Part shown: in pieces, positions 46,971-56,896 of the stretch
Position numbering within the stretch: the stretch's first letter is position 1
Layout: every line of letters starts with the position of its first letter
Assembly (NCBI GenBank): GCA_016871315.1
Contig: VFZE01000004.1
Location: forward strand, 62,001-126,000
DNA: 64,000 nt
Direction: 5' to 3'
Origin: Acidimicrobiia bacterium
Lineage (GTDB): Bacteria; Acidobacteriota; Terriglobia; Bryobacterales; Bryobacteraceae
Translations under genes and position numbers: made by a program
The notes under the pieces: model-generated
Seen by the model: the letters and a program-made list of their open reading frames with translations, nothing else
What the model was told of the DNA's origin: nothing
Database searches by the model: none

Positions 46971-48194
46971 CTAAATCACGTCCGCAAAGCTTCGCTGAAG
47001 CCTTGTGAACCAGGCGTGTGCGGCCAGACATCCGGCTGCGCACAATCCCGTCAGCGCCGCCAACGCCTGCAGATCCGGAGCACGGGCTTCCAGCAAAACA
47101 GCCCGGTAGGCCTCCACCAGCACATAGATCGGGCTCTTTGACAGGATGGGCACTGCAGCCGCAGGCAGTGACGCTTCCGGGTAGCAGATCGGTGTCAGAA
47201 AAAAAAGTACGGTTAGCCCGAAGCCCGTAACTTGGCCCAGATCCCGCAAATAAACTCCCACCGCGGCCAGCGTCCAGCAGATGGCTAGGGTGAGTAGCAG
47301 TTGTGGCACGATTATCAGCGGCAGCCATAGCGCCGTCAGCGGTATCGATCCGCGGGTTGCCACCAGCAGAAACGCGAAAATCCCCAGTCCGAAACCCTCG
47401 CCCACAAGCCCCGCAAGAACTGGATTCACCGGAAGAATCTCCACCGGGAACAACAGTTTCTTTACGAAGTTGCGATTCTCCAGGATGATGCCCGGCGCGC
47501 GCGCGGCCGCGTCGCTGAAGGCCAGCCACGGCAGCATTCCGGCCAGGAAATACAAGACAAAGCCGGAACGGCTCGGGTCCTGCCCGAAACGCGCTTGCAG
47601 CACAATGCCGAACACGAAAAAGTAAGTCAGCATTAGCAGCAGCGGGTGCATCAGCGTCCAGAGAAGATCTCCGAAAGAACCACGGTAGCGGCTGGCGATG
47701 TCACGGCGGGTCATGGAGCCGATCAGCGAACGGTTGCTCCACAGGCTTTTCACCGGCTCGGTGAACGCTCGGCCTAGTTTGTATCCCAGTTCGCGGCGGC
47801 GCAAACTGCCGCGCGTGGCCACTTCCACCTCTTCCACGCTGCAGCGGCGCTCTTCCACATGCGAGCTGACCAGAAGAAAAGGCCATTCCTTCAGATAATG
47901 CCAGCCCTCATCATCTGAGCGGGGAGAAATGTAGACGTGATAACGGCCGGGTTCGGGCGGCATCGGGATGTGCAAGCTGACTGCGGTCTGCCCTTCCGGA
48001 GGCAGTGGCTGTGGCAGTCTGTGCCAGTCACCCTCGGAAATGAACAGCGAGGTTTCCGGATCAAAAAGCTGCCAGCCCAGGCAGAACCCGCGTCCGGAAT
48101 CCCAGGACTCCCCCGAGAGGTTCTGCAGCCGGAACTCGACGCGAAGATCCAGCCCGTCGGTTGCCGCCCGCGGCTCCTGAAATCCGGCGCTCAT
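46971..48194 (-). CDS. Polysaccharide-export ABC-2 permease with fused N-terminal beta-sandwich
   Basis: A 407-residue protein. Residues about 10-115 (FRLQNLSGESWDSG, FLLVSSHVEE) resemble the beta-sandwich that caps Wzt-type ATPases. Residues about 140-407 are an ABC-2 permease (SLIGSMTRRDIASRYRGSFG, then LLWTLMHPLLLMLTYFFVFG, then PICYPEAS) of the Wzm/KpsM type. It would export a glycan across the inner membrane. No ATP-binding partner gene is in the window, so the ATPase must be elsewhere. It is the last gene of the operon and overlaps the preceding gene by 4 bases. Confidence 0.85.
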   Translation of the reverse strand: MSAGFQEPRAATDGLDLRVEFRLQNLSGESWDSGRGFCLGWQLFDPETSLFISEGDWHRLPQPLPPEGQTAVSLHIPMPPEPGRYHVYISPRSDDEGWHYLKEWPFLLVSSHVEERRCSVEEVEVATRGSLRRRELGYKLGRAFTEPVKSLWSNRSLIGSMTRRDIASRYRGSFGDLLWTLMHPLLLMLTYFFVFGIVLQARFGQDPSRSGFVLYFLAGMLPWLAFSDAAARAPGIILENRNFVKKLLFPVEILPVNPVLAGLVGEGFGLGIFAFLLVATRGSIPLTALWLPLIIVPQLLLTLAICWTLAAVGVYLRDLGQVTGFGLTVLFFLTPICYPEASLPAAAVPILSKSPIYVLVEAYRAVLLEARAPDLQALAALTGLCAAGCLAAHAWFTRLQRSFADVI

Positions 48195-50158
48195 GAGTAC
48201 AACCAGGCAGGATACCGGACGCTCACCGGTCCCTCCTTCCGGCCCACCGCGTAGATGCCGTCACCCCGCAGCTCCGACGGTAGCTTGTAGCGCCGCATCA
48301 GATCCTCCACCCAAATCAGCTCCGGTTTGGGCTCTTCCAGAAACTCGCCCGTTTCCAGCTTCTCTACCTCAAAGCCGGCATCGGCCAGCAGCAGCTGAAT
48401 CTCGCCCGGCGTATATTCGCGGTTATGGCGCGCATCGCACATCACGCCGTCCTCGTTGGGCCGCAGGTAGGAAGGAAAAAAGCCCGGATGATAGCCCTGC
48501 AAGATGGCCGAGACCGCACGCAGCGAACTGATGTTAGGCGTGGTGAGAAGCAGGTGACCGCCGGGCTTCAAGATGCGGTTGATCTCCGCCATCATGTGCA
48601 TCGGATCGTTGGGCAGATGCTCCAGCAACTCGCAGCACAGCACTGTGGAAAAGTATTCATCCTCGTAGGGAAAGCGGTCCTTCTCCGCGTCAAACAGATC
48701 CAGCTCGCAGGCAAACTCTTCTCCGTGGGAGGAGACAGCTGCCTTCCTGTCCGCGTTGCCGGCCGGGCCGTAGTAGCATCCGCGAACCTCGCCATAGCCG
48801 AGCTTCAAGCGCAGCGCCGGGGTGATTTGCAGGTACGCGCCCATTTCCAGAATGCGGTCCTCGGCTTTTCCTGGCGGCACCAACTCCAGGGTGCGGCGCA
48901 GCCTTGTGATGTGCGTCTCCACATATCCACGCGATTCATCCGTTTGCGCCCAGCTTCGGATATAGCCGGGTTCGACGCTCACCGGCTCGGCAGGTTCGGC
49001 TCCCTCGAGCACCGGACGACTCCATTCGCCGCCCGCGGCAACCGATTCGAGAAACGAATGGTACAGCGCGGCGGTGCGACTCCAGGAGCATTCCCTCTCC
49101 ACCCACCCCCTCGCGCGCGCTCCCATCGCTTGCGCCAGGTCCGGCCTTTGCACAAGCAGCTGCATGTAATCCGTGAGCAGATCCTCCTCGCTAGTATCCA
49201 CCGGCACCTTCAGGCAAGTGTCATCGGGGAATTCCGCGAAAGCGCCGACGGAGGAAACCAGCACCGCTTTCCCCAGGCTCATCGCCCGCAGTAGCGTGCC
49301 CGAGGTTTCCCCTACCGTCGGGTATCGCAGGTTGAGAATGACGTCGCAGGCCGCCAGGTAACTGGTGAACTCTTCAATCTCCGTGCGCCCGATCAGCCGA
49401 ACCGAGCCGCGCAGGTCCATGCGCGTCAGCATCGACTCCAGCGCAAGATCCTGATGGGGCTCCCCGACTAGGATCATGCGTGGCCGCGGATCGGTGCGTA
49501 GCAGCCGCTGAAACGCACGCAGCGATTCCACGATCCTCTTGTAGGGCTTCAAATGTCCGAAAATGCCAATCAGCGGGGTGTTGGCGTCAATACCAAGCTG
49601 CTGCCGGAACTCCATTCTTTGCGCCGGCATCGCCGATTGCCCCACCCACGCCCCGTGCGGGATCCGCGCCGCCGGTCCCTTGTATCCAGCCTCGCGCGCC
49701 GCCGCGATCACGTATTCGCTATGCGCGATCAAGCCGCGCGCGGAACCCACTAAGCGCCGCAACATCGGGACTCCGTCATAATCCGGCCCTGCTTGCAGCG
49801 CTCTCACCTTCGCCGCATAGGCAAGCGCCGCCGCGCCTCCATCAAACTCCACCTCCCGCATGTAGGCGTCCCAGTCACCGGGGCGAATCGTCATCTCCGC
49901 GATCAAGTGATGCAGGTTAGCCTCGTGCAGCACTACTACTCCGGGATGCCGCAGCGCAGTGCGGTAGGCATGCTCGTGCCACGGGTTGTTGCCGATCTGG
50001 TAGAGACAGATGTCGAAGCCGGATGGAGTGCATCCGCCGCGCTCTCCGGTGACCACCTCCACTTCGCACAGCCTCTTCAAGGGTTCCAGCAAGGCGGCCG
50101 AATAGTCGGCAATCCCGCTGGGAGACGGCGGCAGAGGAGTGAAGCAGGCGACGCGCAT
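48191..50158 (-). CDS. Glycosyltransferase-methyltransferase fusion
   Basis: A 655-residue two-domain enzyme. Residues 1-370 are a family 4 glycosyltransferase (MRVACFTPLPPSPSGIADYS; IGIFGHLKPYKRIVESLRAF; NLRYPTVGETSGTLLRAMSL). Residues about 430-640 form a Rossmann-fold SAM methyltransferase (EDRILEMGAYLQITPAL, then YFSTVLCCELLEHLPNDPM, then EINRILKPGGHLLLTTPN). The pairing suggests sugar transfer followed by methylation, perhaps to cap or stop chain growth, which is inference. It sits 2 bases after the DUF3108 gene in the operon. Confidence 0.88.
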   Translation of the reverse strand: MRVACFTPLPPSPSGIADYSAALLEPLKRLCEVEVVTGERGGCTPSGFDICLYQIGNNPWHEHAYRTALRHPGVVVLHEANLHHLIAEMTIRPGDWDAYMREVEFDGGAAALAYAAKVRALQAGPDYDGVPMLRRLVGSARGLIAHSEYVIAAAREAGYKGPAARIPHGAWVGQSAMPAQRMEFRQQLGIDANTPLIGIFGHLKPYKRIVESLRAFQRLLRTDPRPRMILVGEPHQDLALESMLTRMDLRGSVRLIGRTEIEEFTSYLAACDVILNLRYPTVGETSGTLLRAMSLGKAVLVSSVGAFAEFPDDTCLKVPVDTSEEDLLTDYMQLLVQRPDLAQAMGARARGWVERECSWSRTAALYHSFLESVAAGGEWSRPVLEGAEPAEPVSVEPGYIRSWAQTDESRGYVETHITRLRRTLELVPPGKAEDRILEMGAYLQITPALRLKLGYGEVRGCYYGPAGNADRKAAVSSHGEEFACELDLFDAEKDRFPYEDEYFSTVLCCELLEHLPNDPMHMMAEINRILKPGGHLLLTTPNISSLRAVSAILQGYHPGFFPSYLRPNEDGVMCDARHNREYTPGEIQLLLADAGFEVEKLETGEFLEEPKPELIWVEDLMRRYKLPSELRGDGIYAVGRKEGPVSVRYPAWLYS

Positions 50159-50160
50159 CT

Positions 50161-50838
50161 TCAGCGAAGCAGGTCCATGGAAATGGTTCCCACCGAAAGC
50201 GGCAGTTTCACTTGAACCAGCGTGCGAACCGGGTCGCGTGCGAAAAACACCTCGAAGCTGATCTCAGCCTGTGGACCTTTGATCATCGCCGTGAGCCGGT
50301 CCGCCTCCACGCGCGTATCCTGCGTCACCACTTGGTGCAGCCCGCCGTATTGCAGCTTCAGCTGGTAGGCCGCGCCATAGTAGACGGTCTGCGAGGCCGG
50401 CAACCGCCCCTGTTGCAGCTCCTTGCGCAGGAAAAAGATGAAGGCCAGCGCATCGCGCGCGCAAGGGCCGGTTGCCACCTCCGACTTGCCGCCGCCGGAG
50501 GTTTCCCTCACCAGTTTGCCCGCTTCCAGATCAAACGTCGACTTCTCCGAGGTTTTCCGCGCCCCCAAAGTGTTTTCCCTGTGAAACTCCAGGGAACACC
50601 CATCGGCATTCACACGCGACCGAAACTCCCCCCGCACGGGAACGCCGGGGAGCGCCGCCTCCATCGTCATTTGATATTCGAATCCGCCCGCGGCCGGCTT
50701 GGAGCTGATCTGCGCTTCCCCGAGGCTCAACCCGCTGGGCCAATTGATGGAGTAGAGCAGCGTCTCCTCGTTCCATGCCAGCGCGGCCGGCGTGAGCAGT
50801 AAGCCGGCGGCAACGATCCAATTGCGCCGGAGGGTCAT
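50161..50838 (-). CDS. Secreted DUF3108 protein
   Basis: A 225-residue protein with a signal peptide (MTLRRNWIVAAGLLLTPAAL). The body shows DUF3108 features: LLYSINWPSGLSLGEAQIS, then DALAFIFFLRKELQQGR and TVYYGAAYQLKLQ, consistent with a lipid- or glycan-binding beta-barrel in the periplasm. The function is unknown. It overlaps the downstream end of the preceding glycosyltransferase gene by 4 bases. Confidence 0.78.
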   Translation of the reverse strand: MTLRRNWIVAAGLLLTPAALAWNEETLLYSINWPSGLSLGEAQISSKPAAGGFEYQMTMEAALPGVPVRGEFRSRVNADGCSLEFHRENTLGARKTSEKSTFDLEAGKLVRETSGGGKSEVATGPCARDALAFIFFLRKELQQGRLPASQTVYYGAAYQLKLQYGGLHQVVTQDTRVEADRLTAMIKGPQAEISFEVFFARDPVRTLVQVKLPLSVGTISMDLLR

Positions 50839-52004
50839 TTCAGCGAACGCGCCGCCACAGCTCCTGGCTTGGCCGCCGCCGCCGACCGCGCCGCTGAGGC
50901 CACTTCATAGTAAACCTCCAGAGTCTTGGAAGCTGCGTCCTTCCACTGGAAGCCGGTGGCGCGTTGGTATCCGAGCCTTTCCATACGTGTCCGCAGTTCT
51001 GCATTCAGCAGCAGATCACGCAGCGCCCGGAACATCTGCTCACCGGATTGCGGATCGAAAACGATCGCAGCACCGTCGGCAACCTCCAGCATCGCCGAGG
51101 AGTTGGAGCAGGTCACCGCGCGCCCGCATGCCATCGCCTCCAGGATCGGAATCCCGAACCCTTCATAAAAGGACGGGAAAGCGAACACGTCGCAGCCTCC
51201 GTACAATTGAACCAGTTCGTCGTCGGTCACGAATCCCGTGAAGTGGATGCGATGGGCGCAGGAAGAGTCGGCCGCAGCCCGCCGCACCCGTGAAGCGTAC
51301 CAGCTATCCTGTCCTACCAGCACCAGGTGATGGGGCAACTCCGGGTGCTGGCGCACCAACTCCTCAAAGGCGTGAATCAAACCCGTCTGATTCTTGCGCG
51401 GCTGGAGGTCGCCTACCATCAGCACGTAGGGAACGGGTACGCCCAGCCGGCCGCGGACGGCGGCCCTGGCCTGTTCCCTCGACATGGGCCGGAACGAGGA
51501 GCTGACCGCATTGGGCACCACCGTAACCTTCTCCTCCGGCAAATTGTAGGCTCTCCGGATCGCCTGGGCGGAGAATTCGCTGGGAGTGAGAATGCGGGCG
51601 GCGCGCCGAACGGTGCGGCGCACCGTGAGCTGTAGCTGTGCGGCGCGAGCGGGAGGAAAATACTCGGGCCGTTCCAGGAAACTGATGTCGTGCACGCTCA
51701 CCACCACCGGCGCAGGGCAACCGAGCGGCGCCGTGTACTGCACGTGGAACAGATCCGGCCGATCCTCCCGTAGCCGCCGCGACAGGTCTAACCCCAGCCG
51801 GACGAACGGATTCCCGGAAACCTGCCGGCATTGAAACCGCTCCGGGACGTAGTTCTCCGCGCCGGGTTCGGAAACGTAGGCGATGAAATCCGAAGTTTGA
51901 TCCAGTTCGGCGAAGCTCCGCAACAGGTTTCGGATGTAAACCTCGTTCCCCGTCAGGTTGCGCCCAATGGCGTGTGCGTCGACACAGAAACGCATGCGCG
52001 TCAT
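50835..52004 (-). CDS. Family 4 glycosyltransferase
   Basis: A 389-residue GT-B enzyme; I start at the ATG at 52004, after which FCVDAHAIGRNLTGNEVYIR resembles the acceptor loop of the enzyme at 24213. Later blocks are LMVGDLQPRKNQTGLIHAF and YGGCDVFAFPSFYEGFGIPI, followed by EAMACGRAV. It transfers a sugar inside the operon's glycan pathway; the donor is not predictable. It lies 10 bases after the preceding glycosyltransferase. Confidence 0.88.
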   Translation of the reverse strand: MTRMRFCVDAHAIGRNLTGNEVYIRNLLRSFAELDQTSDFIAYVSEPGAENYVPERFQCRQVSGNPFVRLGLDLSRRLREDRPDLFHVQYTAPLGCPAPVVVSVHDISFLERPEYFPPARAAQLQLTVRRTVRRAARILTPSEFSAQAIRRAYNLPEEKVTVVPNAVSSSFRPMSREQARAAVRGRLGVPVPYVLMVGDLQPRKNQTGLIHAFEELVRQHPELPHHLVLVGQDSWYASRVRRAAADSSCAHRIHFTGFVTDDELVQLYGGCDVFAFPSFYEGFGIPILEAMACGRAVTCSNSSAMLEVADGAAIVFDPQSGEQMFRALRDLLLNAELRTRMERLGYQRATGFQWKDAASKTLEVYYEVASAARSAAAAKPGAVAARSLK

Positions 52005-52014
52005 TCCAGTATAG

Positions 52015-53196
52015 TCAAATCCCCAGTCTATCCAGAGCCTTCCAGCCCGCTGCCCAGGTAAATTTTTCCGCGAGTAGCGATCGGCCCTGCTCAATGAGGG
52101 ATCCCCGTAACTTAGGCGAGTCTAGCAAAGAGCCGACCGCATCCGCAAAATCCTGCACATTATCCGCTAATAAGAGATGTTTTCCGTGCTCGGCGGCCAG
52201 TCCTTGCGCACCGATCGCGGTCGATACCACCGGCGCTCCCGCCCCCCATGCCTCCAGTATTTTGATCCGCGTTCCGCTTCCGGAGCGCAACGGAACAATA
52301 GCGGCCGACGAACCGGCTAGTTCTGTCCACGTATCGGGGATCTCTCCGGTCAGGCGCACGCCTGGTGAACTCCTGACATACTTCCTCACCGCTTCCGGAT
52401 TCTTCCCCGCCAGCACCCATTCCAAACCCGGATACCGCTCACAAAGTAGCGGCCAAATCGAAGATGCGAACCAGCCGACTGCGGCCTGGTTGGGATGGTA
52501 CGCCAAGTTGCCGGTGAACACGATCTGGTTCTTTACCGTCACGCAGGGAGCCTCACGTTCTGGAATGGCGTTCGGGTACACGTGCGCAATCGCCTGAGAG
52601 GAGATCCGCCGCGCCAGTTCCCGGTCCTCGTCGCTGGCCGTCAGCACGATGTCAAACTGCGGCAGAAACTCCGCCTCCAGCCGCCGGCAAGCTGCTGCGA
52701 AGCGCCGGTGTCCTGCTCCCACCGGTCCAGGCTCCACTTGTGCGCTCAACTCGTGTAGCCTCGATTCCACGTTGTGCAGATTGAGCACCGTGCTGTCGCT
52801 GAATTCTCCCAGCAATGTGCGGTAGGGCGCTGTCCAAAAATGTTCCAGCACCACCACATTCCACCGGTGGCCCTTGCAAAACCGCTCGATGGCTGCCTCA
52901 TAACCCGCGAACCGGTCCACCAGCGGCGGCACATCACGGCGCAGCCGCTTCAAGTTCCGCCACACCCTGGCCAGCCCGCCGCGGCGATGATAGGGCAGAT
53001 CGATCAACAGGTTTTCCTGAATCAGTCCGGGCGGCAAGGCCGCGCGCGGGTCCGGAGAGCCACGTTCCCGGAAAAGTATCGCATCCAGTGGGTAGCGCTG
53101 CGCCAGATAGTGGAGCATCGATGCTGTACGGATCGCGCCGCCGCCGTATAGTGGATAGGGCGCCTCCGGGCAAACAATCAAGGCTCTAGCTTGCAA
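52015..53196 (-). CDS. Family 4 glycosyltransferase with TTG start
   Basis: A 393-residue enzyme (LIVCPEAPYPLYGGGAIRTA; VFTGNLAYHPNQAAVGWFAS; GSGTRIKILEAWGAGAPVVS). The only good start is the TTG at 53196, preceded by AGGAGG at a proper distance. It overlaps the end of the upstream gene by 11 bases. Longer in-frame N-terminal extension is arginine/cysteine-rich and unlike protein. It closely resembles the N-terminal half of the first-fusion enzyme at 2871-4943 in its LYGGGAIRTA-type start. Confidence 0.85.
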   Translation of the reverse strand: MQARALIVCPEAPYPLYGGGAIRTASMLHYLAQRYPLDAILFRERGSPDPRAALPPGLIQENLLIDLPYHRRGGLARVWRNLKRLRRDVPPLVDRFAGYEAAIERFCKGHRWNVVVLEHFWTAPYRTLLGEFSDSTVLNLHNVESRLHELSAQVEPGPVGAGHRRFAAACRRLEAEFLPQFDIVLTASDEDRELARRISSQAIAHVYPNAIPEREAPCVTVKNQIVFTGNLAYHPNQAAVGWFASSIWPLLCERYPGLEWVLAGKNPEAVRKYVRSSPGVRLTGEIPDTWTELAGSSAAIVPLRSGSGTRIKILEAWGAGAPVVSTAIGAQGLAAEHGKHLLLADNVQDFADAVGSLLDSPKLRGSLIEQGRSLLAEKFTWAAGWKALDRLGI

Positions 53197-54202
53197 AGCG
53201 ATCGATCGCCTCCTGGTACACGGCCCGCATCCTCCGCGCCGTCTTGTCCCAACCGAACATCGCCGCCCTATGCAGTCCCTTTTCCGACAGCTCTTTTCTG
53301 AGCGGCGTGCTTTCCAACACCGTCCGCATAGCCTCCGCCCAGGCCTTTCTATCGTTTGCCGCAACGTGCAGCGCCGCGCCCCCCGAGACTTCCATTAGCG
53401 CCGCGTCTTTGCTCGCGATCACCGGCGCTCCGCATTGCATCGCTTCCAGCAAGGGAAGGCCGAAGCCTTCATAACTGGATGGAAACACCACAGCCGTTGC
53501 GCCGGAATACAGCGCCGGCAGCTCGTCCTCGGACACCATTCCCGCAAGTCGCAGCCCGGGCTCCGGCCGCGGCGGCTCAAAGTCCTCTCTCATCCGGCCG
53601 GCAAGCACCAGATCGACATCATGAAGGCGTTTCACTTGACGCCACGCTTCCATCGCCACTCCCAAATTCTTGCGCGGCTCCAGCGTTCCCACGAATAGAA
53701 AGTAAGGTGCGGCCGCTTCGCTTCTCTCCATGCGCCGGAAATGTGATCCGGCAGCCAGCGGCACGGCCACCGTGCGGGACGGATGCAAGCCAAAATGTTC
53801 GATCGCCTGCCGGCGGATCACCTCCGTTGGCGTCACCACGATCGTCGCCAGACCAAGTCCTACAAGAAAGGGAGTGCGGCGGCTTACCCGCGCGCTCACA
53901 CCGGCCGGTCTGCCCGGCAAAAACGGACTGAGGTCGTGCACTGTGATTACGCTCGGCTTCAGCGGCAGGTACGGCACCGCAAAGTCCGTGCCATGGAACA
54001 GGTCAAACCCGCGCCGGTACAAATGAACCGGCAGGCCGATGGACCACCATCGCCGCATCAGAGCATTCGAGCCATGCTGCAGGAGCAGGCTGAAGCTATC
54101 CTCGGGAAACTCCTGTTGCAGGGCTGAAGCAAGTTCCACGGTGTATCGCGCAATCCCGCCCGTCGGCACGCTCAGCGGCGTCGCATCCAGTGCCACCTTC
54201 AT
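53186..54202 (-). CDS. Family 4 glycosyltransferase
   Basis: A 338-residue GT-B enzyme (MKVALDATPLSVPTGGIARY; FLFVGTLEPRKNLGVAMEAW; SGATAVVFPSSYEGFGLPLL, then EAMQCGAPV). It is short for the family but complete in both halves. It overlaps the esterase gene by 4 bases and the next glycosyltransferase by 11 bases. Confidence 0.88.
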   Translation of the reverse strand: MKVALDATPLSVPTGGIARYTVELASALQQEFPEDSFSLLLQHGSNALMRRWWSIGLPVHLYRRGFDLFHGTDFAVPYLPLKPSVITVHDLSPFLPGRPAGVSARVSRRTPFLVGLGLATIVVTPTEVIRRQAIEHFGLHPSRTVAVPLAAGSHFRRMERSEAAAPYFLFVGTLEPRKNLGVAMEAWRQVKRLHDVDLVLAGRMREDFEPPRPEPGLRLAGMVSEDELPALYSGATAVVFPSSYEGFGLPLLEAMQCGAPVIASKDAALMEVSGGAALHVAANDRKAWAEAMRTVLESTPLRKELSEKGLHRAAMFGWDKTARRMRAVYQEAIDRFAS

Positions 54203-55074
54203 GGAACAGCCGCGCCAAAAACTTCTCGATAAAAAGCCCAGACGGGTTCGCCCATCTGGCGGTAGAACTGGCCGCCGTTGTGCCCCACTCCCGGCACGAG
54301 GAAAAACTCATTCTTCAGGCCGAGGTTTTCCAGCAGCTCATGATACTGACGGTTCCAGTCCTTTAGCTGATCCTCGCCGCCGACCCCAATGCGAACCCGC
54401 GTGCCTTTGGCCGCCGCCGCTTTCTGTCCGGCGATCGTCCACGGGCTGTGCTCCTTGTAGTATGCCTTGTCGCCACCGTAGATCTGCTGGAAGATCGCGG
54501 CACGGCGCTCCGCCAGCGTATCCTCGGTGTGCAGCGCGCCGGCCATCACCGATACAGCCCCGAACAACTCCGCGTACTTCAGCCCCAGCCGCGCGGCGCC
54601 GAACCCGCCCATCGAATAGCCCTCAATCGCCCGCCCCTTCCGATCCGCGATCGTCCGATAAGTCCCATCCACATGGGGAATGAGATCCTTGATGATCACC
54701 TGCTCCATCGGCAGCGATCCGTCCTTGGCGTTCGTGTACATGCTGTTGTTCATTCCATTCACCAGCACCACGATCGCCGGTGGGGCCTTGCCCGCCCGCA
54801 TCGCTTCCACGCCCATGCCGAGGAACACCTGTCCGGAACGCTGATTTCCTCCCAGCCCGTGCAGCCAATACACGACCGGGAAACGCTGTTCCGCGCTGAC
54901 CTCGTATTCCGGCGGCAGATAGATCAGGTAACTGGACTCACGGTCAATCGTCTTGCTGAAAAAACTCACATAGCGGGAACCCGCCGGCGCGGCCTGTACC
55001 GGATCCATCCACTCTGCCTGCTGACTCCAGCCCAGGCATCCCAAGAAAATCCACAGCAGGCCGCGGCGCCTCAT
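54199..55074 (-). CDS. Secreted esterase of the alpha/beta-hydrolase (esterase D/PHB depolymerase) type
   Basis: A 291-residue protein; the ATG at 55074 overlaps the epimerase stop and gives signal peptide MRRRGLLWIFLGCLGWSQQ. Blocks are YLIYLPPEYE, FPVVYWLHGLGG and the nucleophile elbow GYSMGGFGAARLG with its serine; GVGHNGGQFY supplies the histidine. It would deacylate a glycan or ester in the periplasm. Its place in the operon suggests action on the product polysaccharide. Confidence 0.86.
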   Translation of the reverse strand: MRRRGLLWIFLGCLGWSQQAEWMDPVQAAPAGSRYVSFFSKTIDRESSYLIYLPPEYEVSAEQRFPVVYWLHGLGGNQRSGQVFLGMGVEAMRAGKAPPAIVVLVNGMNNSMYTNAKDGSLPMEQVIIKDLIPHVDGTYRTIADRKGRAIEGYSMGGFGAARLGLKYAELFGAVSVMAGALHTEDTLAERRAAIFQQIYGGDKAYYKEHSPWTIAGQKAAAAKGTRVRIGVGGEDQLKDWNRQYHELLENLGLKNEFFLVPGVGHNGGQFYRQMGEPVWAFYREVFGAAVP

Positions 55075-55904
55075 CGCAGTTCCTCCAGCACTTGTGGACG
55101 CGACGGTCTCCATCCCAGCACCCGCGCCGCTTTGGTGCTGCCCACCTTCTGATCGATGATCAAGGCCTCCGCAATCGGGCCCAGCAGCTTGCGCGCCTCC
55201 TCCAGACTCAGACTCTTCTCGCATCCTGCTGCCAGCGCCACGTCCTTCCACAACTGCGGTGCGCCGTGCGCTGCCAGGTAAAGTTCACCGGGTCCTGAGT
55301 TCTCCAGCGCCAAAACATACAAATCGGCCAGATCATCCACGTGAACGAAACTCCAGTGGTTCTCACCGCCGCCGATGAGAGGCAGCTCGCCGCTCTTCAG
55401 CCGGTGAACCGCGCCTCCGCCACGCCCGTACACCATCGCCGGCCGGACCACGATCCCGCGTATCCTCCGGTCGCCCGCTTCCAGCACCAGCCGCTCTACC
55501 GCCGGCCGCCAGGCCACAATCGACGCGGGCTTGAGCGGGAACATCTCCCCAGCCAGCCGCCCTTTCGTATCCCCCATCACCCAAACACCGCTCGTATAGA
55601 GGAAAGTCTTGCCTGTTCCATCCAGTGCGTCCAGTACCGACTCCACCACCGCCCGGTCCATAACGCCGCTGTTTGTGCCCCAACTCATTGCCGTGTGGAC
55701 CACGGCGTCGCAAGCCCCGGCCGCCTGCCGCCATGCACCCGGATGCTCCAGATCGCCGCGGCAGATCTCCGCCCCCCATGACGCCAGCTTCTGCGCCGAT
55801 TCTTCCGACCGCGCCAGCGCCTTGACTCCATGTCCCTTCTGTTGGAGCCGGTCCAGTACCGCGGAGCCGATGTAGCCCGTGGCCCCGGTCAGGAAAACTT
55901 TCAT
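55071..55904 (-). CDS. NAD(P)-dependent epimerase/dehydratase-like protein
   Basis: A 277-residue Rossmann protein. The nucleotide loop is LTGATGYIGSAV; the acidic block is ICRGDLEHP. The extended-SDR YxxxK pair is not evident at its usual place (TSGVWVMG), so catalysis may differ from typical epimerases. C-terminal parts (FVHVDDLADLYVLAL) are family-like. It probably modifies a nucleotide sugar or related compound for the operon's glycan. Confidence 0.8.
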   Translation of the reverse strand: MKVFLTGATGYIGSAVLDRLQQKGHGVKALARSEESAQKLASWGAEICRGDLEHPGAWRQAAGACDAVVHTAMSWGTNSGVMDRAVVESVLDALDGTGKTFLYTSGVWVMGDTKGRLAGEMFPLKPASIVAWRPAVERLVLEAGDRRIRGIVVRPAMVYGRGGGAVHRLKSGELPLIGGGENHWSFVHVDDLADLYVLALENSGPGELYLAAHGAPQLWKDVALAAGCEKSLSLEEARKLLGPIAEALIIDQKVGSTKAARVLGWRPSRPQVLEELR

Positions 55905-56896
55905 GGCTGATTCGACGGCCGCAGTCCTTCATCGGCCCCAAGACCACGGTCCAGCCAGCCCGGATACCATCGGAACACGTTCCCCGTCAGGCTGCCGATG
56001 AAGATCAGCTTCTCCGGAGTCACGTGAATCCAATGTCCGGGCGATTCCATCGCGCCCACGATCCGGCCCGTGCCCAGATCTACCTTCATGATGCGCCCTG
56101 CCAGCGTGTCGTAGGTGATGTTTTCGATATTGTTGCGGTGTGTGATCACCCACGCTTCATCGTCTCCAGTGATGAAGATGTTCTGCGTTGCGCCAAGATG
56201 GGTCCACTGCTTCAGGAACTTCCCCTCGCTATCGAAAATCTGGATGCGGTTGTTCTCGCGGTCGCTCACATACACCAGACCCTTGCTGTCCACCGCCACC
56301 GAATGCACGGTGTTGAACTCGCCCGGCGCCGTCCCATGCTTCCCCCACGCCTTCACGTATTTTCCGTCGTAGGTGAATTTCACTACGCGCGCGTTCCCAT
56401 AGCCGTCGGACACATAGAAATGCTTCTGATCGGGGGAGAAGGCGATATCCGTCGGCCGGTAGAAATGCTTGTCGTCGGCCGCGTTCTTGCCACGGACGCC
56501 CAGGGTCAGCAGCAGTTTCCCCTCGCGGCTGAACTTCATCACCAGGTGATCGCCGTTGTCCACAGCCCAGACGTTGCCGCCGCGGTCAATGCGCAGTCCG
56601 TGCGGATTGCCGAACAGTCCCTTGCCCCAGCCGCGGACATATTTCCCCTTCCCGTCAAAGACCACCACCGGTTCGGCCTTCTTCCCGCGGTGGAAAACGT
56701 ACACTTCTCCGGAAGCATCCGCGGCCACCGCCGACACCCGCCCGAACTTCCATCCGTCCGGCATCGTATCGGGCTCCTCCCCGAAACGGATCTGCACACG
56801 GTACTTCAGCAACCCACCTTCGTGCGGGTACCAGCCTTGTTCGGCCGCCAGCGCCAGCGCCGCCACCATCGCCAGTGTCAACATCGCCACTTTCAT
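55901..56896 (-). CDS. Secreted NHL-repeat (six-bladed propeller) protein
   Basis: A 331-residue protein; the ATG at 56896 follows AAGGGAG and gives a signal peptide (MKVAMLTLAMVAALALAAEQ). Repeats such as GLFGNPHGLRIDRGGNVWAV, GTAPGEFNTVHSVAVDSKGL and VYVSDRENNRIQIFD form an NHL propeller, close to peptidylglycine alpha-amidating lyase-like proteins. It is the first gene of the glycan operon and overlaps the epimerase by 4 bases. A binding role is more likely than catalysis, which remains open. Confidence 0.82.
   Translation of the reverse strand: MKVAMLTLAMVAALALAAEQGWYPHEGGLLKYRVQIRFGEEPDTMPDGWKFGRVSAVAADASGEVYVFHRGKKAEPVVVFDGKGKYVRGWGKGLFGNPHGLRIDRGGNVWAVDNGDHLVMKFSREGKLLLTLGVRGKNAADDKHFYRPTDIAFSPDQKHFYVSDGYGNARVVKFTYDGKYVKAWGKHGTAPGEFNTVHSVAVDSKGLVYVSDRENNRIQIFDSEGKFLKQWTHLGATQNIFITGDDEAWVITHRNNIENITYDTLAGRIMKVDLGTGRIVGAMESPGHWIHVTPEKLIFIGSLTGNVFRWYPGWLDRGLGADEGLRPSNQP

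Follow-up and report, generated by a model that had tools for sequence, protein, structure and literature searches.

The window analysed here, a 64,000-nucleotide stretch of DNA (C4:62001-126000 of the acidobacterial source genome), contains a set of nine genes that are all located on the minus strand between positions 46971 and 56896. From first to last, these genes encode an NHL-repeat protein of 331 aa (I, 55901..56896; PF01436, E 8.9e-23), an NAD-dependent epimerase/dehydratase of 277 aa (H, 55071..55904; PF01370, E 8.1e-24), an esterase of 291 aa (G, 54199..55074; PF00756, E 4.3e-27), a GT4 glycosyltransferase of 338 aa (F, 53186..54202; PF00534, E 2e-28), a GT4-like glycosyltransferase of 393 aa (E, 52015..53196; PF13692, E 4.5e-23), a further GT4 glycosyltransferase of 389 aa (D, 50835..52004; PF00534, E 3.7e-31, and PF13439), a DUF3108 protein with a signal-like N terminus that is probably periplasmic (C, 50161..50838; PF11306, E 1.2e-10), a 655-aa fusion of a GT4 glycosyltransferase and a class I methyltransferase, which is a candidate chain-capping enzyme (B, 48191..50158; PF00534 at residues 182-351, PF13489 at residues 421-600), and a 407-aa Wzm-type ABC-2 permease with an N-terminal Ig-like domain (A, 46971..48194). 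Pfam places Glycos_transf_1 in B, D, E and F, and Methyltransf_23/11 in the C-terminal half of B. Successive junctions from I to A measure -4, -4, -4, -11, +10, -4, +2 and -4 bases. None of the nine translated genes contains an internal stop, and with the start codons that we chose, gene E begins with TTG and the other eight with ATG, the Pfam search having been run on the longest open reading frames. Translation, junctions and Pfam matches confirm the coupled nine-gene layout and the protein families of the original prediction, which had also described an operon devoid of an ATPase; this is borne out by a PF00005 scan of the genome, which gives no ABC ATPase inside the window.

Comparison with 80 loci from relatives reveals that the operon is not kept as nine genes. 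Common to the relatives is a core of six, encoding three GT4 glycosyltransferases, the DUF3108 protein, the GT4-methyltransferase and the permease. Gene B precedes the permease gene in 76 of the 80 loci (67 of the 68 with at least 2 kb of upstream sequence) and DUF3108 was found in 62 of the 66 loci with room for it. Best-hit tallies, in which loci at contig ends count as lacking the gene, place D in 63, E in 49 and F in 40 of the 80 loci; plain counts include cross-matches among the GT4 enzymes. The NHL and epimerase genes were each found in none of the 80 loci, 42 of which reach as far upstream as I and have room for genes I to G, and the esterase gene was found in one. A single esterase match was likewise obtained in a 20-locus set, which derives partly from the same genomes as the 80 loci (e.g. 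L074, L097) and is hence not independent of them. Judged by this distribution, the NHL, epimerase and esterase genes look like local additions to a conserved core. Whether the trio are passengers outside the glycan pathway is evenly balanced, since their rarity beside the core in relatives points that way, but their gene junctions overlap in the window, and the epimerase and esterase are plausible as sugar-tailoring enzymes.

The membrane part of the permease matches PF01061 (ABC2_membrane) above the cut-off, over residues 158-367 only (E 2.5e-15), and phmmer aligns residues 154-404 with nearly all of the 256-residue chain of 6m96 (E 5.5e-23), which we take to be Aquifex Wzm. The permease core is homologous to a solved glycan-export permease and is of the Wzm type. 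The AF2 model of the whole permease has a pLDDT of 86.5, and that of the N-terminal domain (residues 1-120; 47835..48194, minus strand) has a pLDDT of 94.9, a pTM of 0.87 and eight strands of at least three residues. The domain is thus real and confidently predicted as a beta-sandwich, and we take it to be an addition that the Wzm of this bacterial class has acquired. It had been proposed that the domain resembles the cap-binding domain of Wzt, a resemblance that holds for the fold but not by sequence. The best Foldseek match of the model is 6o14, the carbohydrate-binding domain (CBD) of Aquifex Wzt (E 7e-5, TM 0.61), and 8dl0 matches with a TM of 0.64; this similarity is non-specific, however, since other Ig-like folds also match, including the Ig-like domains of dextranase and GH2 proteins and the FW domain of ILRUN (Z 9.9-10.5). 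No Wzt entry occurs among the best 50 VIA-align matches listed (Z at least 8.9), an absence that excludes nothing.

At the sequence level, none of Pfam, hhalign or the PDB profile search establishes membership of the domain in Wzt_C (PF14524). Pfam gives no Wzt_C match in the window permease, and Wzt_C matches one of 54 N-terminal domains, at E 0.17; hhalign against 19 Wzt_C domains aligns 55 columns with a pairwise E of 0.0015 and a probability of 17%, and the domain profile finds no PDB sequence at E<=10. Weak phmmer matches in the PDB to immunoglobulin and one other protein (E of at least 0.08) were dismissed as chance. The nearest sequence family of the domain is the FW/NBR1 Ig domain (PF16158), which matches 33 of the 54 N-terminal domains at E<=10, the best at 9.6e-6. 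The window domain itself gives E 0.068, and proteins with a domain related to it reach 43.5 and 45.8 bits. These profile relatives occur as extra domains attached to O-antigen ligase, sulfatase and methyltransferase proteins, as found in a scan of 10 of 29 loci in which the longest of five offsets was taken as the minus-strand frame. The structure alignments drew on 53 of the 80 loci, hand-picked for near-complete N termini. In 95 of 99 family genomes, the permease match starts before residue 80 and extends into the N-terminal domain, and this retention argues for a real function, which our best explanation leaves vague. The domain is missing in six permeases examined (L260-L262 and L269-L271). 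Conserved residues include G83, Y85, W98 and F106, and the domain is the fastest-evolving part compared, with a mean identity of 0.42 versus 0.66 for the membrane part in 10 genomes for which all loci were available, a choice that favours good matches.

The ATPase that most plausibly drives this permease is encoded on another contig. The ATPase that adjoins the permease in relatives has as its ortholog in the source genome an orphan Wzt (G000:C2:138320-139585), which would lie at least about 212 kb from the permease gene if the contigs abut, and which contains a complete Wzt_C domain (PF14524, E 3.1e-35); the Wzt_C profile of the family matches 8dky at E 4.2e-18. In 12 loci of relatives, 11 from other families and one without a family assignment, the gene that comes immediately after that of the permease encodes such an ATPase. 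The adjoining ATPase is 48-54% identical to the query ATPase P0003 in L260, L261, L262, L266, L267, L268, L272, L273, L274 and L278, 53% identical in L088 and 55% identical in L124, where the adjacency was checked by sequence and the stop and start codons overlap (TAATG). An automated survey of the 80 loci scored no adjacency, probably because the ATPase match in L124 starts ahead of the stop codon of the permease. An ATPase located after an A-like permease in L276 was left out of the 12, both proteins being 36% identical to the queries and the C81 type being closest. The permease does not have this ATPase beside it in the 18 loci examined from the window's own family or in L089, which belongs to the same family as L088, and among 69 loci with at least 1 kb of downstream sequence the two adjoin in L124 only.

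Permease and C2-type ATPase co-occur across 121 family genomes, with 86 containing both, 13 the permease only, 3 the ATPase only and 19 neither (Fisher p 5e-11, relatedness ignored). A strong ATPase match is missing in 13 of the 99 permease-bearing genomes, where some copies are cut or diverged, and the C2-type ATPase is present in 3 of the 22 genomes that have no permease. The orphan Wzt C81 is less tied to the permease (87, 12, 15 and 7 genomes in the same order; p 0.045). Presence was called at a best E of <=1e-85 for the permease, 1e-130 for the ATPases and about 1e-60 for the pseudo-Wzt described below, thresholds that were set after the tables had been seen, with counts or lists of genomes transferred manually. 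Genome context pairs the permease with a Wzt, and the motor of the operon is most likely the orphan C2 Wzt, encoded elsewhere and retaining its own cap-reading domain. Further Wzt-like ATPases in the genome (C81, C39 or C33) could in principle drive the window permease, but this is very improbable given that C39 and C33 each adjoin a permease of their own, that in L277 a homolog of C81 lies next to a permease of the C27 type and that co-occurrence favours C2.

In Aquifex, Leu300, Thr346, Ala348 and Trp362 belong to the methyl-cap pocket of the CBD (PMC9445017). In 29 family orthologs of the C2 ATPase, the equivalent positions, located by moving the numbering by hand with a one-residue offset, are L in 28 and T, A and W in all 29. 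In the C81-type control, A and W are likewise invariant (29 of 29), the T position is occupied by S and the L position mostly by M. Position 323 is M in eight of 10 adjoining ATPases, and conservation of the pocket in the C2-type ATPase is only partly specific. These findings bear on the central claim of the original prediction, in which the cap-reading domain had moved from the ATPase to the permease and the ATPase would lack its usual cap domain. A partner ATPase with its own complete cap domain had been named at the outset as evidence against that claim, and the likely partner, to which both adjacency in the 12 loci and co-occurrence point, has a complete Wzt_C and a conserved pocket, leaving the claim unsupported. 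The second result named in advance as contrary evidence, an N-terminal fold that differs from Wzt-C, did not emerge, although the fold match is non-specific. We regard such a transfer as highly unlikely: the Foldseek match to the Aquifex CBD, the columns aligned by hhalign and the residues G83, Y85, W98 and F106, which in our reading recall the Y...W...F of Wzt_C, have to be set against the solitary Wzt_C match, the low hhalign probability and the relatives that have no N-terminal domain, for five of six of which a cap-bearing ATPase was found. Since the partner ATPase likely keeps its own sugar-reading domain, the N-terminal domain is probably no replacement for the usual reader.

Capped ABC-dependent O-antigen systems employ a chain terminator with a coiled-coil molecular ruler. 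Most of B is taken up by its two enzymatic domains, glycosyltransferase and methyltransferase, leaving no visible room for such a ruler, and Pfam finds no kinase match in this protein. The gene content supports the glycan assembly and ABC export originally envisaged, with the GT-methyltransferase beside the permease as a potential capping enzyme. Divergence of the N-terminal domain correlates with that of the B methyltransferase (r 0.70), the membrane part of the permease (r 0.60) and the CBD of the ATPase (r 0.52; 45 pairs from 10 genomes). A possible, if tentative, role for the N-terminal domain is to dock B, or some different protein, onto the exporter, thereby coupling capping to export. 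B is a near-constant neighbour of the permease, its methyltransferase is the part whose divergence the domain tracks best, and by analogy the FW domain of Nbr1 binds a protein partner (PMC9233695); the sample is, however, small and non-independent, the differences in r are small, and B is kept in relatives that have no N-terminal domain. It is doubtful that the ATPase CBD reads the cap while the N-terminal domain also binds glycan nearer the channel gate, giving two readers. In favour of this, each of the two domains is a beta-sandwich with a probable cytoplasmic location, and profile relatives of the N-terminal domain are found on the ligase, sulfatase and methyltransferase proteins mentioned above; against it, the N-terminal domain evolves fastest, and any ligand site in it is putative.

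A more surprising by-product of the analysis is a degenerate, family-specific pseudo-Wzt with a conserved cap pocket, represented in the source genome by P0008 (G000:C16:26661-27593). This protein has lost the ABC signature and the helical region but kept the pocket, and its cap domain is more conserved than that of the live ATPase. It is also present in 5 of the 22 genomes without the permease, and divergence of its cap domain is uncorrelated with that of either the permease or the live ATPase (r -0.11 to 0.05). Very long open frames suggested pseudo-Wzt fusions; in L284 the extra part crosses an oppositely oriented neighbour, and such frames were therefore not treated as fusions. We consider it unlikely that, in this acidobacterial family, the FW-domain permease, the relocated Wzt and the predicted ATPase-dead pseudo-Wzt form a three-part reader, a reading opposed by the permease-free genomes and the uncorrelated divergence. 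The pseudo-Wzt would in that case attach to capped chains, by itself or in a pair with the live Wzt, and act in quality control or in setting chain length. At the gate, the Ig domain of the permease would accept the glycan or the enzyme that caps it.

The account that we favour, with a probability of roughly three in four, is that genes F to A assemble and export a capped chain of the O-antigen type, that an ordinary, distantly encoded Wzt reads the cap and that the N-terminal domain is auxiliary. Weighing against it are the lack of adjacency in the window's own family, the genomes that have only one of permease and ATPase, the partial specificity of the pocket, the missing space for a ruler in B and the wide retention of the N-terminal domain. 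Genes F to A would provide the cytoplasmic assembly and inner-membrane export arm for an ABC-transporter-dependent surface polysaccharide, whose lipid-linked chain would be built by the four GT4 enzymes. Methylation of the growing chain end, which would serve as a stop-and-export cap, probably falls to the methyltransferase half of B, and the chain would leave through the Wzm-type permease, driven by a Wzt ATPase that reads the cap through its own Wzt_C. The gene for this ATPase would be the one that lies immediately behind the permease gene in several families elsewhere in the class and at a separate site in the window's family. The FW/NBR1-like domain of the permease, probably cytoplasmic, most likely helps to keep either the glycan or the GT-methyltransferase close to where the channel opens.

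The lack of an ATPase gene in an operon can, then, mean gene relocation rather than new transport logic, and a candidate partner can be named in this case. For a group of soil bacteria, the analysis brings to light a Wzm permease that bears an Ig-like domain and a pseudo-Wzt that is widely conserved; if either the extra domain or the pseudo-ATPase takes part in reading the chain end, cap reading would be spread over more components than in the prototypes described so far. Among the literature matches listed, we found no Wzm permease described as having an Ig-like domain, no pseudo-Wzt and no dedicated O-antigen study of this bacterial group. The operon is a variant of Wzm/Wzt export that is new within the literature searched.

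Of the known systems, WzmWzt of Aquifex aeolicus, whose CBD binds the methyl cap (PMC9445017; 7k2t, 8dku, 6o14), shares with the operon a homologous permease and partner CBD, and the methyl-cap pocket residues are conserved in the likely partner ATPase. Unlike in the Aquifex system, an Ig-like domain precedes the membrane part of the window permease, whose match to 6m96 starts only at residue 154, and the likely partner ATPase is encoded at a distance. As in the E. coli O9a WbdD/Wzm-Wzt system (PMC3482155), a methyltransferase is the candidate terminator and Wzt has a C-terminal carbohydrate-binding module, whereas the methyltransferase of the window forms a fusion with a GT4 enzyme and has neither a kinase match nor a visible coiled-coil ruler. 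With regard to the N-terminal domain, Wzt_C (PF14524) provides the best match at the level of fold but no convincing sequence match. The FW (four-tryptophan, NBR1/ILRUN) domain PF16158 is the best sequence family, and the ILRUN FW structure matches with Z 9.9 and 21% identity, but the window domain differs from known FW domains in reaching 14.2 bits against the curated cut-off of 28 and in being fused to an ABC permease.

The nine-gene operon (56896 to 46971, minus strand) lies in the window at positions 62001-126000 of contig C4 of a 6.25 Mb draft genome (G000), and the GC skew of the window (1-64000) is positive to ~26 kb, mostly negative thereafter and more strongly so past ~52 kb. Re-derivation of starts and junctions gave spacings, from first gene to last, of -4, -4, -4, -11, +10, -4, +2 and -4 bases, and the domains agree with the original prediction, which is accurate; in order, the genes encode NHL, epimerase, esterase, three GT4 (F, E, D), DUF3108, GT4-methyltransferase (B) and Wzm-type permease proteins. 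The operon is also ATPase-free as claimed, with zero ABC ATPase domains found within the window. We compared gene order in 20 relatives' loci of 16-20 kb and 80 loci of named genomes (genomes overlap between the sets), the relatives being MAGs found by similarity and labelled Acidobacteria, Terriglobia, Bryobacterales, Bryobacteraceae, Solibacter and similar. Across these loci one arrangement keeps returning, GT4-GT4-GT4-DUF3108-(GT4-MT)-permease, with some genes not seen in individual loci: B precedes the permease in 76 of the 80 loci (67/68 where at least 2 kb upstream is available), 62 of the 66 loci long enough to show it contain the DUF3108 gene, and best hits to D, E and F are present in 63, 49 and 40 of the 80, contig ends not being allowed for. 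Since the epimerase and NHL genes occur in none of the 80 loci and the esterase gene in one, 42 of the 80 extending far enough upstream, the conserved unit is the six genes from the first GT4 to the permease, and the first three genes look local.

The own genome encodes four Wzt_C proteins above cut-off and nine ABC2 permeases, and two of its Wzt ATPases are permease-less, on contigs C2 (P0003, 422 aa) and C81 (P0004, 454 aa). A C2-type ATPase (48-55% identity) directly follows a window-type permease in 12 relatives' loci (the ten L260-L262, L266-L268, L272-L274 and L278, plus L088 and L124), permease stop and ATPase start overlapping as TAATG in L124; 11 of the 12 come from other families of the class and L124 is without a family assignment. 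No C2-type ATPase adjoins the permease in the loci from the window's own family (L071-L087 and L090) or in L089, from the family of L088, and among 69 named loci with at least 1 kb downstream L124 alone has this adjacency. The simplest reading is that the ATPase gene was relocated within the window's family; in the own genome it lies at least 212 kb from the permease even if contigs C4 and C2 abutted. Across 121 family genomes, permease and C2-type ATPase occur together in 86, permease only in 13, ATPase only in 3 and neither in 19 (Fisher p 5e-11, kinship ignored), compared with 87, 12, 15 and 7 for the C81 type, a weak association (p 0.045); in L277 a C27-type permease has a C81 homolog as its neighbour. 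Beside the candidate partner gene, with a 4-base overlap, is a proteasome-type AAA ATPase gene (L009:3723-5321, G000:C2) whose best NCBIfam match is pup_AAA (E 1e-66, below cut-off). The genome also carries a separate permease/ATPase pair on contig C33 (L006:3923-5949), with a 240-aa ATPase lacking a Wzt_C match.

P0003 matches the Wzt_C family PF14524 at E 3.1e-35. In Aquifex, the pocket for the 3-O-methyl cap in the cap-binding domain (CBD) comprises Leu300, Thr346, Ala348 and Trp362, and capped chains are not exported when the transporter lacks a functional CBD (PMC9445017). The predicted equivalents in P0003, mapped by alignment with numbering carried by hand at a one-residue offset, are Leu323, Thr371, Ala373 and Trp384; among 29 family orthologs L is kept in 28 and T, A and W in all 29, and ten permease-adjacent ATPases from other families retain T, A and W throughout, with M at the first position in eight. 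As a control, 29 C81-type proteins all have A and W, but T is replaced by S and L mostly by M; the pocket is therefore specific only in part. That the candidate partner has its own Wzt_C domain, complete with the pocket residues, argues against the proposal that the cap reader had shifted from ATPase to permease.

A third Wzt_C protein, P0008 (L011:6659-7594, G000:C16:26661-27593), has an ATPase part that has degenerated but a Wzt_C pocket that is intact and, judged by its sequence, is a dead Wzt. In 30 copies the ABC signature and the helical region are missing throughout (2 of 65 residues of the latter align in each), the Walker-B glutamate is replaced by H (22), Q (7) or R (1), K stands at the Walker-A lysine position in 9 and the H-loop histidine is kept in 26; pocket T, A and W are retained in all 30. 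In the tree their CBDs fall into a single clade (92/85), placed with the C2 type rather than with C81. Among 151 class genomes, orthologs (~E 1e-60 or lower) are confined to the window's family, matches in other families being the C2 type itself. The P0008 type is present in 72/99 permease-bearing genomes versus 5/22 permease-less ones (p 3e-5; contig-end fragments in G006, G087 and G101 scored absent), and its CBD is better conserved than that of the live ATPase in 43 of 45 genome pairs. Its CBD divergence does not track that of the permease or live ATPase (r -0.11 to 0.05), which counts against a tight partnership with either. In 14 of the 30 loci (L280-L309) this pseudo-Wzt gene has next to it a gene resembling the one for the 453-aa protein encoded beside P0008 in the own genome, a putative signal-bearing right-handed beta-helix protein.

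Permease residues 1-120 are predicted as a beta-sandwich (pLDDT 94.9, pTM 0.87; alignment from 53 of the 80 loci). Foldseek ranks the CBD of Aquifex Wzt first (E 7e-5, TM 0.61; TM 0.64 in 8dl0), with GH3 and other Ig-like domains close behind, and the VIA-align ranking has Z scores of 9.9-10.5 for the FW domain of ILRUN, for GH2 domains and for a dextranase domain. Across 54 N-domains, the N_BRCA1_IG (FW) profile matches 33 at E<=10 (the lowest value being 9.6e-6, with 0.068 for the window's permease) and the Wzt_C profile one, at E 0.17; hhalign against Wzt_C gives a probability of 17% (E 0.0015). As the domain stands before the first helices, with no earlier membrane span, it is probably cytoplasmic by homology to Wzm. 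Permeases without it occur in L260-L262, where a cap-bearing ATPase directly follows, and in L269-L271; G012 and G111 (sources of L269 and L270) encode a cap-bearing ATPase away from the permease, and G109 (source of L271) has no such match at E<=1e-60. A profile search of the whole phylum found N-domain matches in 110/396 genomes, own genome included. Related domains (L311-L339) turn up throughout the phylum in O-antigen ligases, sulfatases and methyltransferases, some of which carry tandem copies. Among ten host proteins scanned from 29 fetched loci, four are methyltransferases, O-antigen ligases and sulfatases account for two each, and the remaining two match no Pfam family; from this range of hosts the N-domain gives the impression of a module added repeatedly to glycan-related enzymes in this phylum.

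The original interpretation is half right: capped Wzm/Wzt export by this system is likely, but the results speak against relocation of the cap reader to the permease. In the probable mechanism the GT4 enzymes would build a lipid-linked chain, B would methylate its end, the CBD of the distant Wzt would recognise it and the permease would export it; the N-domain would assist at the gate by binding the glycan or B. Its divergence correlates slightly better with that of the B methyltransferase (r 0.70) than with that of the membrane part (0.60) or the ATPase CBD (0.52) in a sample of only ten genomes, a weak hint of docking on B. The extra N-terminal domain makes the architecture of this permease a new variation on the known Wzm/Wzt plan.
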